DNA of 64,000 bases, taken from positions 2,633,001 to 2,697,000 of the forward strand of contig NZ_CP092832.1 in the NCBI RefSeq assembly GCF_022532105.1, given 5' to 3'. The stretch is from Flavobacterium sp. HJ-32-4 (GTDB taxonomy: Bacteria > Bacteroidota > Bacteroidia > Flavobacteriales > Flavobacteriaceae). Each line of letters opens with the position of its first letter. Position 1 is the stretch's first letter. The notes below the pieces were generated by a model. It searched no databases, was not told where the DNA came from, and was given only the letters and a program-made list of their open reading frames with translations. The translations under genes and the position numbers were made by a program. Shown here piece by piece: positions 57,832 to 64,000 of this stretch.

Positions 57832-58173
57832 TGCCTAAAATGACGTGCGTCGGCTAACCGAACCTAAGCGCAGGGCTTGGTGTCTTCCGCTTCCCGCTTG
57901 TTGTCGCCTTTGCATTTCCATAGTAGCCGCCCGCGCGCTGCCAACCTCTGTGTACAATACGCCTGCCAAGCACAGGACGTGAGTTGTATTTCGGAATTAA
58001 TTTGTACTTTCGGATAATTTCGGGGAGTTAGGTGGAGACGGTTTTTTTTGCGGTGCATTGATGGATTGAAACTATCGGGATTGTATGGTGTACTCTTTCT
58101 GTTTCTGATTGATTTTTACCTATATGCTGAAATTCTGGGATTATAGTATGAATACTTTAGAAGTATAAATGAG
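57832..58173. other. Gene-free stretch up to the cassette array boundary
   Basis: No gene called. A GC-rich part (57850-57990) holds a short CAGGGCTTGG/CCAAGCACAGG-like inverted repeat. The last 40 bases are AT-rich with a TACTT-TAG-AAGTA palindrome just before GTTAGGC (58173-58179), the left end of cassette 1. No attC-type arms are present here. Confidence 0.55.
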
Positions 58174-58195
58174 TTAGGCGAAATAACATCAAAAC

Positions 58196-59050
58196 ATGAC
58201 GGATAATTCTCAACTTACGATAAGGTTTGGAGGCGATGGAAATATTAAAGTCGATACTCTAACTGATTTTCTTGAAATCTACAAGGAACTTATTTTCATT
58301 GTCAATCACCAACTTGGTTATAGTAATGATGATTTAATTATAGAAGTATCTCCTCCAGAAAATGGGAGCTTCAAAATCAAAATATCGCCTAAATATCAAA
58401 AATTATTGCTGCGCTCATTCGAGACAATTGTTGTGTCAACTATTGGAGGTTTACTATTATATTTTCTAACTAAAAATGACGATGGCAAAACTCTTGAAGA
58501 GATTAGAGATCTGCTACAAAAACAAACGAATGATCCAACTATCATAAACAACGTTTATAACATTTACGAAAATTCTGGTGCGGAGCAAAAAATACAGCAA
58601 TCGTTTGCAGTAGTCAATGGAGATGACAATGTCACTTCTCTAAAAATCGATCAGGATGGTCATCAAATTATTGATGTCCCAAAATCACAATTTCCTAAAC
58701 TTATCAATACTAATATTCAAGAGAATTATGTTCTCGAACCTAGAACTGACATATTAAAAGATGAAGCTGTACTTGTAATCAAAACTATTCATTTTGAAGG
58801 CAATGCAAAATGGGTTTTTGTTTTTAGAGGCTATACAATTAAAGCTTCAATAAAAGATGCTGAATTTTTGAGTAAACTCAATAATGAAGCATTTAGAAAA
58901 GGTGATAATTTGAGAGTTACTTTGGCTAGAACTAGAATATATGATGAAGATTTACAAACATACATGGTAGACGAAAGCACATATGTTATCGAGAAAGTAA
59001 TTGAACATATTTCTAAAACGGATAATCAAAGTAAACTAGATTTTAAATAG
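58196..59050 (+). CDS. Cassette 1: single-TM protein of unknown function
   Basis: 284 residues. N-terminal domain (about 1-75) with LTIRFGGDGNIKVDTLTDF and a conserved-looking PPENGSFKIKI strand; one membrane helix (about 78-93, TIVVSTIGGLLLYFLT). It is followed by a polar linker with a 'VVNGDDNVTSLKID' segment and a C-terminal beta domain (AVLVIKTIHFEGNAKWVFVFRGYTIKASI). No named family recognised. Very AT-rich, ATG 23 bases from the cassette start. The stop codon's last base is already in the attC-adjacent complement. Because the neighbouring cassette is a defence system, a defence role is possible but unproved. Confidence 0.75.
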   Translation: MTDNSQLTIRFGGDGNIKVDTLTDFLEIYKELIFIVNHQLGYSNDDLIIEVSPPENGSFKIKISPKYQKLLLRSFETIVVSTIGGLLLYFLTKNDDGKTLEEIRDLLQKQTNDPTIINNVYNIYENSGAEQKIQQSFAVVNGDDNVTSLKIDQDGHQIIDVPKSQFPKLINTNIQENYVLEPRTDILKDEAVLVIKTIHFEGNAKWVFVFRGYTIKASIKDAEFLSKLNNEAFRKGDNLRVTLARTRIYDEDLQTYMVDESTYVIEKVIEHISKTDNQSKLDFK

Positions 59051-59057
59051 TTACTTC

Positions 59058-59194
59058 GCCTAACAGCGGCTAGGCGCAATTGCCAAATTCAGAGTTTATA
59101 GAAAGTTCACGTTTTCTAATCATTTTTGGTCTTAGCGGAGAATACTCGGTTCCAAAACCTTGGCAACTGTCGCCTGAGCCGCGGAACGTTATGC
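59058..59194 (+). other. attC-like site 1
   Basis: 137 bases. Left end GCCTAAC (59058-59064), right end GTTATGC (59188-59194). Arms CGCCTAAC-AG-CGGCTAGGCG...TTGCC and GGCAAC...CGCCTGAGCCGCGG...ACGTTATGCG pair with unpaired extra bases on the right arm, as in integron attC hairpins. The central part is AT-rich and not conserved with site 2. Confidence 0.8.
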
Positions 59195-59241
59195 GTCAGC
59201 TTAAAAGACAACATTCACAAAAGAAAACATAAATCGACAAT

Positions 59242-60069
59242 ATGAATTTATCAATATCAGAGCAACTAACATACTCAACAGTTCGAATTGAATGCGAACT
59301 AAAAACAGGTGGAATTTCTACTGGAACGGGTTTCTTCTTCAACTTTCTTGAGGACAAAACGAATAATACTCATGTACCTGTGGTTGTAACAAACAAACAC
59401 GTAATAAAAAACGCTTCCAAAGGAAAACTTATTATTACTAAGGCTAATGAAAATGGAGAACCAATCGACACGCAACATTTTACAATTGCATTTGACAATT
59501 TTGAAAGTTTTTGGCGGCTTCATCCCGAAGCTGACGTGGATTTATGTGCTATGCCCATTGCTCCTTTCGTAAATGAAGCACAAAAAAGGGGAGACAAATT
59601 GTTTTATATACCTTTCACAAAAGACCTATTGTTAACCGAAAAACACAAAGACGAATTAACGGCAATTGAAGATGTTCTTATGATTGGGTATCCAAACGGT
59701 ATCTGGGACTCTGTAAATAATATGCCCATTTTTAGAAAAGGAACAACAGCGACAAATCCTTTAATCGACTACAATGGGAAAAAAGAAATAATGATTGACA
59801 TCGCTGCTTTTCCTGGTTCAAGTGGCTCACCTGTTTTAATTTTCAACGAAGGTGGTTACAGAGATAAGAAAGGTAATATGTATATGGGGGTGAGCAGAAT
59901 AATCTTGTTAGGTGTTTTGTATGCTGGACCACAAGCAACAGCGACAGGCGAAATTGTTATGACACCAAATCTGCAAAGACCAATCGCGGTATCACAAATT
60001 CCAAACAATTTGGGTCTTATAATTAAATCTGAAAGGATAATAGAAATGGAAAAATTATTCAAACAATAA
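59242..60069 (+). CDS. Cassette 2: trypsin-like serine protease
   Basis: 275 residues, no signal peptide, so probably cytosolic. The chymotrypsin-fold triad is visible: H53 (VVTNKHVI), D100 (EADVDLCAM) and S194 in FPGSSGSPVL, with VLMIGYPNG before it. The oxyanion region and the C-terminal strand are in place, so it is likely active. Length and order match bacterial trypsin-like peptidases without PDZ domain, which sometimes occur in defence loci as effectors. Substrate unknown. AT-rich like cassette 1, ATG 53 bases from the cassette start. Confidence 0.85.
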   Translation: MNLSISEQLTYSTVRIECELKTGGISTGTGFFFNFLEDKTNNTHVPVVVTNKHVIKNASKGKLIITKANENGEPIDTQHFTIAFDNFESFWRLHPEADVDLCAMPIAPFVNEAQKRGDKLFYIPFTKDLLLTEKHKDELTAIEDVLMIGYPNGIWDSVNNMPIFRKGTTATNPLIDYNGKKEIMIDIAAFPGSSGSPVLIFNEGGYRDKKGNMYMGVSRIILLGVLYAGPQATATGEIVMTPNLQRPIAVSQIPNNLGLIIKSERIIEMEKLFKQ

Positions 60070-60079
60070 AAAGCCGAAC

Positions 60080-60211
60080 GCATAACAGGCGTTTGGCAAA
60101 AAAGCGGGTTTAGTGCTTAAAAGAAGCTTTGTGCTTCGTATCAAATTTAGTGCTGTTAGACAGTTTAGTGCTTCGAAATCCGCTTCTTCGCCAAGCGCCA
60201 GACCGTTAACA
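60080..60211 (+). other. attC-like site 2
   Basis: 132 bases. Left end GCATAAC (60080-60086), right end GTTAACA (60205-60211). Arms CATAACAGGCGTTTGGC...AAAGCGG and CCGCTTCTTCGCCAAGCGCC...CGTTAAC pair with an asymmetric bulge. The loop region contains TTTAGTGCTT three times. Confidence 0.8.
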
Positions 60212-60256
60212 GAGGTTCTAAAACCAACCTAGTCGACAATTTACAAAGCTTAATAA

Positions 60257-61042
60257 ATGAATATTGACATACTAACTCATTTTGAAGAATCGGCAAGTGA
60301 AAATGGTATAACTATTTTCACTTTAAGAAATGCTGAAAGAGATGCTTTTTTTAATAAGCTACCTCAACCTTTTAGATGTTTATATTTGACAGATGAGGAC
60401 TTAGAATGGCGTACTAATGAATTTGGAACATCGAGAGCGGAAGAAATATTTGATAAGATCCCAGACAATCCGACTATCCAATCTGGGGAATTTTCTGAAA
60501 TTCTATGTTATTACATTATCCCTGAAAAATATTTGCCTTCCGCCCATTTAAGACCACCTAAATGGAAATGGAAAGAGAGTAAAAATAATCCTGCACATTT
60601 TACCGATGTTATTCTTTTTTGTCAAAATGACCTCGATAATCCAAGTACTGAAGACAGCTTAATATCAATTGAGTCAAAAGCAAGAGCTTCAAGACCAACC
60701 AGTACAGAAAGCTCTCTTCAAAAAGCAATTGATGATGCTCATAAAGATTATGTAAGTCGCTTAGGGGAAAGTTTATTTCATTTAAAAACTCGCTATAAAG
60801 ATGATAAAAACGCAGAAGCTGTAAATAGACTAAGTCGTTTCATGGATGTGGCTAATTATCCTACTTTCGTTAAACACTTTAAAGCAATTGCAACGGTTGA
60901 CAGGTCATTTGCGGACACTCATTTAAATAATGTTACTGAAATTCCTGATGATATCAGAGATACGTTTGAAGTAATACTTATAAGAATTGAAAACTTGAAG
61001 GGAGCTTACGAGCATACTTTCACTGCAATTTTAGCAACATGA
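60257..61042 (+). CDS. hamA: Hachiman defence protein HamA (DUF1837 nuclease)
   Basis: 261 residues. HamA is the nuclease effector of the Hachiman anti-phage system, held inactive in a complex with HamB and released when HamB senses damaged or phage DNA. A PD-(D/E)xK-type core can be read: E81 in GEFSEILCYYII, D117 in HFTDVILF, and E139-x-K141 in ISIESKARAS, the spacing of DUF1837 proteins. Normal length. It begins 51 bases into cassette 3 and overlaps hamB by ATGA. AT-rich, unlike the core genome. Family call rests on motif order and the hamB partner. Confidence 0.85.
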   Translation: MNIDILTHFEESASENGITIFTLRNAERDAFFNKLPQPFRCLYLTDEDLEWRTNEFGTSRAEEIFDKIPDNPTIQSGEFSEILCYYIIPEKYLPSAHLRPPKWKWKESKNNPAHFTDVILFCQNDLDNPSTEDSLISIESKARASRPTSTESSLQKAIDDAHKDYVSRLGESLFHLKTRYKDDKNAEAVNRLSRFMDVANYPTFVKHFKAIATVDRSFADTHLNNVTEIPDDIRDTFEVILIRIENLKGAYEHTFTAILAT

Positions 61043-63978
61043 TTTATCAGGAACTTAAACGGTGGATTGCTCAATCTGAATCATGGCAGGCATTTATAGA
61101 TTATAAGATAGCTAATGAAGAACAGGCGAATTATACTTTCTATAATCGACCTCAGGATTTTTACATTTCGCTTTTAACCAAATTGCAGGATATTCTTGAT
61201 CGGTTTGATGAAGAAGAATCACCTGATGTGAAAAGAGATTTGATTTCTTTAGCTAAGGGGTTAGAGATATATTCATTAAGAGGGAAAAGGGAAAATTTTT
61301 CTGGTGTGAACTATAGCAGGAATATGTTATATGTCGCTTCATTGTATTATTTAGCAGATTTTCCCGCAACTTCAGTTTTATTACTCAAACAATTTCAGGA
61401 GGAAGAATTTCAAACTGAAATTGAGAAATTTGTTTATTATTTTCTTTCAAGAAATTATACAAGAAAACAAGGTCTAGAAAATCCCTATTTCAGATATATA
61501 ATAGAGTATCTAAGATTAGGAAATGACGAATTAATCAACACACTTCGAAGTATTTTTGAGAACATACTCTCTCCAGATAATCAAATAGAAAGTCATTTAT
61601 TCGTATTAACCTATATCGCTAAGTCTATCCTGAAAAAATTCTCAACCAATAATCTTTGGTACGATTTAAAAGAGTATGCAACAGAGGTAGATTGGAAAAC
61701 TTATGTCAGGTTTAATATAGGGAAAAGCCCTCAGATATGGAGTTTCTTTCCTTCTCAGCAAACAGCAATCAGGCGTGGTTTGTTAACTTTTGATAGAGCA
61801 TTTAGCTTACAGACACCTACAAGCTCTGGGAAAACGTCAATTGCTGAATTAGTAATTTACAATGAGCTATCCAGAAACCCGGAAAGTAAAATACTTTATT
61901 TAGCTCCATTCAGAGCTCTTGCATCCGAATTAAAAAATAATTTAGGTAGGAATCTCAGCACTCAGTTAGGAATAAAAGTTAAGACCATTTATGGTGGTAA
62001 CATCGTCACGGATTCTGACCGATTAAGTATCGAACAATCAAATGTTTTAATATCAACTCCTGAAAAGTTTATGGCTATAGAATTGGGGTTGTCAGGAATT
62101 CTTGATGATTTTCGAACGGTGATTTGTGATGAGGGGCATTTAATAGATAACACGACAAGAGGAATTAGTTATGAATTATTGCTTTCAAGATTGAAAAATA
62201 CTGAATTCGTAGAACGAAGATTTGTCTTCCTATCTGCAATTATTCCAAACATAGAAATAATAAACTCTTGGCTGGGAGGATCGGATGATGATATCGCGCG
62301 ATCAAACTATAGACCTACTGAAATAGAATTAGCATTTTTGAATCAAGTTAGTGCGAGTCACTTTAACTTAGAAATAAATCCTAATGATGAATTTCCAACT
62401 AAATATATCCTTAATCGTTTTTTATCTCCCCAGGATTTTAGCACCCAAAATGGTACTTATAATATTAATTCATTTAAATCCAAAACGGTTGCCGCAGCTC
62501 TTAAATCATTAAATTCAGGAGCTGTTGCCATTTTTTCGCCAACCAAAGACAATAAAAGAGGAGTATCAGGTCTAGCTCTTGAAGTAATCAAACAGCTTGA
62601 AACTTCACTACCGAAACCTATTGCTTTTTGCGATACATCAGAAATAGAAAAAGTAGTAGAATATTTTAAGTACATTTTTGGAACAGAATATTTATTGACT
62701 ATTTGCGCTGAAAATGGTTTTTTATATCATCACGGAGATTTGCCCCAATTCATCAGAGAATTAGTAGAAACTACTATTAGAAATGAAAAAGTAAAATTTC
62801 TTATTTGCACAAGTACTTTAGCCGAAGGAGTTAATTTACCAATTAAGACCCTTATTATCAGTAACGCCAGACGTTATGTTAGCCAACAACAACCAAATGA
62901 ACCTTTACCATTAAGGGATTTAAAAAATCTAATCGGAAGAGCTGGGAGAGCGGGAAAAGAAACTAAGGGCACTGTGATAGTAGTCAATCCTAATGATCAA
63001 TCCATACTATCTGACGTAATAGCAAATAGAAATTTAGAAACTGTGAAAGGCTTTCTCTATTATGTTGTCCAAGTAATTGAGAGGTATATAACCAGAAATT
63101 CAACTCATTTAAGCAATGAACTATTAGATCAATTAAAAGAAGCGGATTATATCGATAATTCAATAATACAGTTATTAGCCGAAGATGCCCCTGTTGAAAA
63201 TCTGGAACAAGAAATAAATACTTTAATTGAAAATACTTTAACCTATTACCAAAGTGATGATGCCTTAAAAACAAGATTAAGGGAACTCTTTGCTTTAAGA
63301 GCAGAAAGAGTAAGGCCGATAGTCGAAGGTGGAAGTCTTGATTTAATAAGATACACTGGTATTCCTCTAAGATCATTTAGTAGAATAGAGGGATTGGTCG
63401 ACTATGAGCAAGATTTTTTATCTGAAATAGAGAACCCATTGGATAGTCGTTGGATAAATTTTCTATTTGACATTCTTTATGAAATTGAAGATTTCAATAA
63501 TAGTATTCCTTTCGGTATATCAAAAGAGAGATTCATTGACGCATTAGCTATATGGATTGAAGGTGGATGGTATCATGATGTCGCAGAAAGTTTGAATTTA
63601 ACAGTTGATGAAACTCTAGTCTTCATAAGATTCTTAGAATACGGGTTGCAAAATTCTGCTGGTTCAATAGTTAAGTATATTGACTATAAGCGTACAGAGA
63701 ATGAAGAAGAAACATCTGACATTATATTGAATTGGTCTAACTACGTAATTTACGGAGTAGATCATAGATTGAAATTAGATTTAATGGAAATTAATATTCC
63801 AGACCGTATAATGGTTCAGCAAATAGCCAATTGGTTTATAGAAAATGAAATGGAATATAATGATCAGGACAACCTGAGAAACTTAATTTCAATCCATCAA
63901 TTGGATATATCTAAATTTATTGAAAATAAAGCCCCAAATATATCGGTTGATTTATTTGAAAGATATATAAAACAATAA
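61039..63978 (+). CDS. hamB: Hachiman defence protein HamB (DEAD/DEAH-family helicase)
   Basis: 979 residues. The N-terminal 240 residues are helical and family-specific. A superfamily 2 helicase core follows: Walker A TPTSSGKTS (259-267), DEGH (364-367), LSAI (398-401), TSTLAEGVNLP near 590 and LIGRAGRAGKE near 632. The remaining 340 residues are helical with repeated acidic segments and end ERYIKQ. HamB binds and unwinds DNA and restrains HamA until activated. All catalytic motifs look intact. The stop is followed within ten bases by the next attC-like end, so hamA and hamB form one cassette. Confidence 0.88.
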   Translation: MIYQELKRWIAQSESWQAFIDYKIANEEQANYTFYNRPQDFYISLLTKLQDILDRFDEEESPDVKRDLISLAKGLEIYSLRGKRENFSGVNYSRNMLYVASLYYLADFPATSVLLLKQFQEEEFQTEIEKFVYYFLSRNYTRKQGLENPYFRYIIEYLRLGNDELINTLRSIFENILSPDNQIESHLFVLTYIAKSILKKFSTNNLWYDLKEYATEVDWKTYVRFNIGKSPQIWSFFPSQQTAIRRGLLTFDRAFSLQTPTSSGKTSIAELVIYNELSRNPESKILYLAPFRALASELKNNLGRNLSTQLGIKVKTIYGGNIVTDSDRLSIEQSNVLISTPEKFMAIELGLSGILDDFRTVICDEGHLIDNTTRGISYELLLSRLKNTEFVERRFVFLSAIIPNIEIINSWLGGSDDDIARSNYRPTEIELAFLNQVSASHFNLEINPNDEFPTKYILNRFLSPQDFSTQNGTYNINSFKSKTVAAALKSLNSGAVAIFSPTKDNKRGVSGLALEVIKQLETSLPKPIAFCDTSEIEKVVEYFKYIFGTEYLLTICAENGFLYHHGDLPQFIRELVETTIRNEKVKFLICTSTLAEGVNLPIKTLIISNARRYVSQQQPNEPLPLRDLKNLIGRAGRAGKETKGTVIVVNPNDQSILSDVIANRNLETVKGFLYYVVQVIERYITRNSTHLSNELLDQLKEADYIDNSIIQLLAEDAPVENLEQEINTLIENTLTYYQSDDALKTRLRELFALRAERVRPIVEGGSLDLIRYTGIPLRSFSRIEGLVDYEQDFLSEIENPLDSRWINFLFDILYEIEDFNNSIPFGISKERFIDALAIWIEGGWYHDVAESLNLTVDETLVFIRFLEYGLQNSAGSIVKYIDYKRTENEEETSDIILNWSNYVIYGVDHRLKLDLMEINIPDRIMVQQIANWFIENEMEYNDQDNLRNLISIHQLDISKFIENKAPNISVDLFERYIKQ

Positions 63979-63980
63979 TA

Positions 63981-64000
63981 AGAACCTCTGCTAACAGGCG
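63981..64000 (+). other. attC-like site 3 (left end only)
   Basis: TGCTAAC (63989-63995) followed by AGGCG, the same start as site 2. The preceding AGAACCTCTG is the reverse complement of the beginning of cassette 3. The rest lies outside the window. Confidence 0.65.

Follow-up and report, generated by a model that had tools for sequence, protein, structure and literature searches.

Which recombination system could have strung together, at one end of a Flavobacterium genome segment, a run of genes each followed by its own long palindrome? The question is raised by a stretch of 64,000 nucleotides of Flavobacterium sp. HJ-32-4 (Bacteroidota, Bacteroidia, Flavobacteriales, Flavobacteriaceae; assembly GCF_022532105.1, contig NZ_CP092832.1, positions 2,633,001 to 2,697,000 of the forward strand), hereafter called the window, in which three consecutive units starting at position 58174 resemble the gene cassettes of an integron. 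Our analyses suggest, with a probability of about 85%, that this array is the integrase-less remnant, i.e., a cluster of attC sites lacking an integron integrase (CALIN), of an integron type that is common in the class Bacteroidia. This type is apparently an undescribed variant: among the titles and opening lines of abstracts listed by searches of an open-access library, we found no description of Bacteroidia integrons whose integrase lacks the insert of classical IntI.

All three cassettes read along the + strand: the first spans 58174-59188, the second 59189-60205 and the last, which is 3.9 kb long and ends 113 bases beyond the window, 60206-64113 (coordinates past 64,000 are window-equivalent). 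Their palindromes match the covariance model R1 presented below at 59055-59196 (65.2 bits, E 2.9e-14), 60077-60213 (107.6 bits, E 2.3e-25) and from 63986 to 64121 (75.3 bits, E 6.4e-17), in each case on the - strand, the bottom strand being the one modelled. The three consecutive attC-like cassettes of one orientation announced by the original prediction, which had been made from the letters alone, are thereby borne out, while the G|TT junction that it placed at every cassette holds for the cassette starts and fails after cassette 3, where the junction is C|TT. It had also noticed that each cassette start is the complement of the bases just before its own attC, namely R'', and this we confirm over 16 positions at 14/16, 11/16 (nine consecutive positions, then a gap) and 14/16 for cassettes 1, 2 and 3; random 16-mers from 52-66 kb, where draws can include the true site, reach such scores 3, 13 and 4 times per 100,000 draws. 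With a palindrome after each gene, G|TT junctions and starts complementary to R'', the three cassettes form what is, judged from the sequence, an integron cassette array. The integron reading of the original prediction stands to that extent; the complementarity is not in itself surprising, since it is a general property of integrons and can be seen by eye in consecutive attC sites beside classical IntI integrases of Bacteroidota as well. A Rfam scan of 54-64 kb matched no family. A generic search for palindromes, anchored strictly on GTT/YAAC, recovered one window site only, and the covariance model was used instead.

A strict pattern taken from window sites 2 and 3 is present in 70 of the 199 genus genomes searched, its reversed control in none; the matches often form long arrays, and one contig holds at least 19 of them between 24 and 54 kb. 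From the genus loci we gathered 110 attC sites (96 distinct), kept 24 that were less than 80% alike and aligned their bottom strands, so that R1 consists of 24 sites from other genomes and contains no window sequence, its seed pattern however being derived from the window. The model, which describes attC sites of about 137 nt by a consensus stem of 16 pairs, 7 of them showing compensatory changes, nevertheless recovers the window sites that had been predicted, and the sites found beside independently chosen integrases agree with it. The cassette logic recurs in these relatives, where 44 consecutive attC pairs match at 5.75 of 9 positions against a mean of 3.89 and a maximum of 4.57 in 2000 shuffles. 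Over the whole chromosome of HJ-32-4, R1 finds 13 attC sites at E 0.0041 or better, the three window sites included. Two near-identical duplicated segments at 2.90-2.93 Mb of this genome (loci L221 and L222) carry two attC each; their cassette gene is open in L222 (300 aa, SIR2-like, just below the Pfam cut-off) and interrupted in L221.

The recombinase is another matter. The original prediction named as partner an IntI-type enzyme with its extra domain; neither the profiles of classical IntI and of insert-less recombinases nor the inventory of tyrosine recombinases revealed an integron integrase in the genome of HJ-32-4; the inventory comprises XerC, XerD, one other full-length protein (a 349-codon open frame) and one fragment. 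No Arm-DNA-bind_3 domain was found in the genome, and no insert-less integrase was detected directly 5' of the array or elsewhere in the window or genome. Having at least three attC sites, where two define the class, and no integron integrase found, the array is on sequence grounds a CALIN. In relatives, the recombinase beside intact arrays of the same type is devoid of the extra domain, contrary to the predicted partnership. The intact layout consists of an integrase of about 350 aa (about 580 aa with an N-terminal extension), an attI box and co-directional cassettes that each end in attC.

A profile search of 199 genomes of the genus and 395 of the class Bacteroidia matched this insert-less tyrosine recombinase in 115 and 199 of them, respectively, the weaker class-level matches possibly including other recombinases. 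Among 20 genomes rich in Bacteroidia-type attC, 19 have the recombinase (intact copies are mostly of 345-349 or 552-584 aa) and none has an IntI over the cut-off; in ten it lies on the same contig as the listed attC, 5' of them and in the same direction. Carriers include species of Flavobacterium, Kaistella, Pedobacter and Pelobium, many metagenome-assembled genomes (MAGs) and Chryseobacterium plasmids, and several other Bacteroidia families share the layout of integrase, attI and array. The recombinase also has relatives on plasmids of Klebsiella, Aeromonas and Salmonella, which match it in part only (49-67% over 46-72% of the query), and one integrase locus sits in a MAG labelled Azoarcus, probably as a misbinned contig.

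The linkage of integrase and array is directional. Out of 20 loci picked by integrase score, the attC-rich genomes being left out, 17 have attC downstream (one of these also has one upstream) and the remaining three lie 0.7-2.9 kb from contig ends. A second set of loci from named genomes (80 kept of 546) has an R1 match in 41; the same-orientation matches are downstream in 151 of 152 cases, besides five shadow matches on the other strand, and this despite 518 kb of upstream against 264 kb of downstream sequence in the 77 loci measured. Past the integrase stop, mostly by 90-105 nt and by about 35-46 nt for the long form, stands a box TATA(A/T)A(C/T)nAG|TT that we regard as attI: at least 10 of its 12 positions are matched in 56 of 67 loci (38 perfect) and in 66 of 70 named loci (48 perfect; 77 of the 80 have a readable stop and 70 have at least 140 nt behind it), as against 137 of 2000 random stretches of 180 nt, five of which reach 12/12. 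Beyond the box the sequence varies from genome to genome, as expected for attI. The plasmid of Chryseobacterium sp. SNU WT5 displays the layout with an integrase, attI 105 nt past its stop and five attC. The cassette array of this plasmid also contains a group II intron (L319, 18722-20464), oriented against the cassettes and near an attC, which recalls the attC-targeting introns of classical integrons.

Between integrase stop and attI, the motif TAnnTTTG, the Bacteroidota consensus for the -7 promoter element, is found in 74 of 108 intervals against 7.9 in shuffled ones, typically 11 nt past the stop. The commonest distance from this motif to a TTTG upstream is 20-23 nt, and a second maximum lies at 14; we take this box as a putative cassette promoter. 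The same motif stands on the sense strand in 26 of 96 attC variable centres, against one on the antisense strand and 4.5 in shuffles, many of these sites being closely related; some attC may thus carry a promoter for the following cassette.

How firmly can the absence of the insert be stated? Of 144 insert-less integrases, 143 were measured: two motifs of the catalytic domain are 58-59 residues apart in 140 of them and 66-67 in the other three. The corresponding distance is 100 residues in 29 of 29 measured classical IntI, a figure obtained from all 30 IntI loci without picking by a motif inside the insert; XerC and XerD of HJ-32-4 have 64 and 66. About 41 residues are missing from the Bacteroidia integrase, and in an alignment with IntI4 (PDB 2a3v) residues 184-240 of the latter are without counterpart. 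In work on the 2a3v structure, the IntI insert is said to contact the extrahelical bases of attC. The AlphaFold2 model of the Bacteroidia integrase is mediocre (predicted local distance difference test 77, predicted template modelling score 0.48), so the argument about the insert rests on motif spacing and not on the fold; a Foldseek search with this model ranked XerA (5hxy) first and IntI4 (2a3v) fourth. In a tree of 53 rows the short forms of the insert-less integrase make up one clade, and the long forms (plus L219) a group that is nearer to IntI; two long Xer branches are the sole outgroups of this tree, and we draw no conclusion on ancestry from it.

The attC sites differ in step with the enzyme. 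At least two single-base bulges on the double-prime arm were counted in 4 of 123 insert-less-type sites against 58 of 83 classical ones and, at a stricter score, in 2 of 83 against 33 of 38; one method served for both sets (32 of 43 and 16 of 20 loci, respectively), with the integrase strand set by hand and some chance palindromes expected in both. An earlier analysis of the attC arms kept 50 of 56 matches. Double-prime bulges are mostly absent from the Bacteroidia stems, in which a conserved wobble pair takes their place, G.T on the bottom strand and A.C on the top one. For the window palindromes, the original prediction looked to a folded hairpin with extrahelical bases: the bottom strand does fold as stably as the top or slightly better (-28.5/-25.3, -22.9/-22.8 and -17.5/-16.9 kcal/mol, bottom/top), and the expected extrahelical bases are absent in this type of attC.

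Taken as a whole, these observations lead us to favour, with less assurance than the assignment of the window array itself, a second, class-wide kind of integron, in which an integrase without the attC-bulge-binding insert would recombine folded, bulge-free attC, the strand being chosen by G.T wobbles, and in which the integrase gene, co-directional with the array, would have attI and promoter at its 3' end. The integrase would join the folded bottom strand of the attC of a circular cassette to attI at G|TT, wobbles together with unequal spacers would replace extrahelical bases in designating the strand, and a Bacteroidota-type promoter about 11 nt past the integrase stop would transcribe the cassettes. 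The joint absence of insert and bulges makes mechanistic sense, but it is a correlation. Such integrons may represent an ancestral state that predates the insert, or an independent recruitment of a Xer-like recombinase.

The window array begins at an attI-like box, TATAAATGAG|TT (58164-58175, + strand, 12/12 positions), to which it is joined at G58173|T58174; neither strand has another perfect box over 76 kb. The whole genome has seven perfect boxes, four of which are followed at cassette distance by an attC model match (E 5.6e-20, 2.5e-15 for the window, 2.4e-5 and a weak, partial 0.005). At three of these four sites the cassette start fits the complement of R'' at 8-9 of 10 positions, and at the fourth (L231) there is no match. 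About 86 nt before one of the attI sites (L223/L231) stands a decayed integrase 3' end, still reading KEYSNSKRPFDDL followed by a stop and 71-75% identical over 81-100 nt to the integrase ends of relatives, so this chromosome would once have held an insert-less integrase. The integrase would since have been lost, leaving four cassette-bearing attI sites and 13 attC model matches, the defence-gene array among them.

Alternatively, the four boxes might not stem from decayed integrons but be secondary chromosomal sites into which an integrase acting in trans inserted cassettes. In favour of this, an integrase remnant can be recognised at just one of them, and boxes without cassettes exist too, as three of the seven perfect ones (chromosome positions 581074, 926656 and 2051302) have no attC model match behind them. 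Against it, a stretch of about 52 to 212 nt before the box is common to three of these sites; the remaining site can be aligned with one of them over 100 nt and has the decayed integrase end before its box at about the usual distance. In the window, this shared flank extends over 58110..58163 (+ strand); flank and box taken as one are about 80% identical, over 69-73 nt, to the same region at two more attI sites of the genome that bear cassettes (blastn, alignment). We consider secondary sites unlikely, and decayed integrons the better description of the four.

A second possibility is that of an ordinary CALIN, whose cassettes were made and moved by a classical IntI with insert that acted in trans or was later lost; the insert-less recombinase next to the arrays would then be a coincidence. 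CALINs without integrase are described as common in one paper (PMC9024848), and Bacteroidota appear among the phyla with integrons in two others (PMC8618304, PMC9668308). Classical IntI passes the cut-off in 105 of 395 genomes of the phylum, which indicates that the search works; it is common in other classes, and exchange is possible. G333 is the one genome from the class, or from a closer rank, that passes, and at E 1e-40 none of 299 sampled genomes of the family has a classical IntI; two family genomes reach 1e-41 in the phylum sample, over model positions 4-179 only and not over a whole IntI. Coincidence is moreover hard to reconcile with an insert-less recombinase 5' of the arrays and an attI at a nearly fixed distance, with double-prime bulges that are mostly present in the classical attC of the phylum and mostly absent here, and with the 16-29 bits at which R1 weakly detects classical attC. 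A classical origin of the array thus appears very improbable to us. Beside one classical IntI (L061, rc 4795, 5699) we saw palindromes of another type, TACAACGGT...ATTGTTGTATGC. That the sites are dispersed palindromic repeats between genes, akin to repetitive extragenic palindromes or miniature inverted-repeat transposable elements and unrelated to cassette recombination, is barely credible: they are indeed repeated, palindromic and found both singly and in arrays, but gene starts agree more closely with the complement of their own ends than is seen in shuffled pairs, the sites keep a single orientation and position relative to the integrase with an attI box at array starts, and a relative of the cassette-2 gene sits between attC sites in another genome.

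Several observations weigh against the view that the window array is the remnant of a Bacteroidia-type integron or against the generality of that type. Among named loci with at least 2 kb of downstream sequence, attC is present in 33 of 38 and 5 of 38 have no R1 match; the C. oryzae plasmid has integrase and attI with no attC match better than E 0.68. The strict attC pattern occurs in 14 genus genomes without integrase, HJ-32-4 included, and 59 integrase-bearing genomes of the genus are without it, the association of the two across the genus being still significant. The first loci in which the attI box was counted are also those that served to define it, the locus sets overlap and share genomes, and related sequences and genomes are not independent in our counts. 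At least one bulge is present in 34 of 123 insert-less-type sites (73 of 83 classical ones), and the bottom strand of the window palindromes is just slightly more stable than the top. Closer to the array, comparison with 67 integrases detected no integrase remnant upstream of the window attI, and the promoter box is in none of the four attI flanks of the genome. Finally, two further degenerate cassettes, 4 and 5, which follow beyond the window, and the C|TT junction that ends cassette 3 are a poor fit.

Set against known systems, the proposed Bacteroidia-type integrons share with classical ones (IntI, TIGR02249, those of other Bacteroidota classes included) a tyrosine recombinase, attI, the G|TT cut, attC with R'' and R' boxes around a variable centre, and cassette-specific complementary ends. 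They differ by the lack of the insert of about 41 residues, by attC stems mostly without double-prime extrahelical bases, and by an integrase that is co-directional with and upstream of the array, with attI past its 3' end; a classical intI is usually divergent from its array. The IntI insert is essential, though not fully conserved in its own subgroup, according to one study (PMC8138268). The window has, as CALINs do, at least three attC sites without integron integrase, and unlike them it has kept an attI box and its attC sites are of the Bacteroidia type. The closest neighbours in sequence and fold are XerA, XerC and XerD (NF040815, PDB 5hxy, 4a8e), which have a similar motif spacing and no insert, whereas the Bacteroidia integrases are set apart by an N-terminal extension, an SP(F/L)D end and their link to attI and attC arrays. 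NCBI labels some relatives of the recombinase 'site-specific tyrosine recombinase/integron integrase'.

As for its content, the array likely carries phage-defence genes. The gene of cassette 1 (58196..59050, + strand, 284 aa) has a partial match to the candidate defence family PDC-S42 of PADLOC (E 3.1e-16, 57.7 bits) and no match in Pfam; that of cassette 2 (59242..60069, + strand, 275 aa) matches PDC-S45, another candidate defence family (E 3.3e-117), and has a trypsin-like peptidase domain (PF13365). A relative of the latter gene, 80% identical, is likewise flanked by two attC sites in another genome of the genus Flavobacterium, and cassette 2 has therefore probably circulated. Cassette 3 holds a Hachiman operon of two overlapping + strand genes, HamA at 60257..61042 (HamA1, E 2.4e-52; PF08878) and HamB, a DEAD-box helicase of 979 aa, at 61039..63978 (HamB1, 1193 bits). 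Cassettes 4 and 5 code for small proteins without known family and their palindromes have no covariance-model match at E 1; the array ends at about window-equivalent 65235, 1.2 kb past the window. Eight more genes, lying in cassettes or next to them, matched none of the known defence families of PADLOC. The truncated C-terminus of a tyrosine recombinase, only weakly similar to insert-less integrases (28-40% over 47-99 aa among the matches listed), is found some 1 kb beyond the end of the array (locus L006, 10234-10656).

Defence genes have reportedly been found as cassettes in Vibrio and in mobile integrons; the present case differs by its Bacteroidia-type array and by a two-gene Hachiman system enclosed in one cassette. 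A widespread system that lacks insert and bulges in step is like a double mutant of the textbook mechanism supplied by nature, and with it the requirements for the choice of the attC strand can be tested directly. It suggests as well that searches which demand the insert have overlooked many integrons of Flavobacterium, Pedobacter, Chryseobacterium and related genera, although the recombinase or a close homologue is present in about half of the class genomes sampled. Since the cassettes of HJ-32-4 include a whole Hachiman system, Bacteroidia-type arrays may serve as a pool of defence genes within the class.

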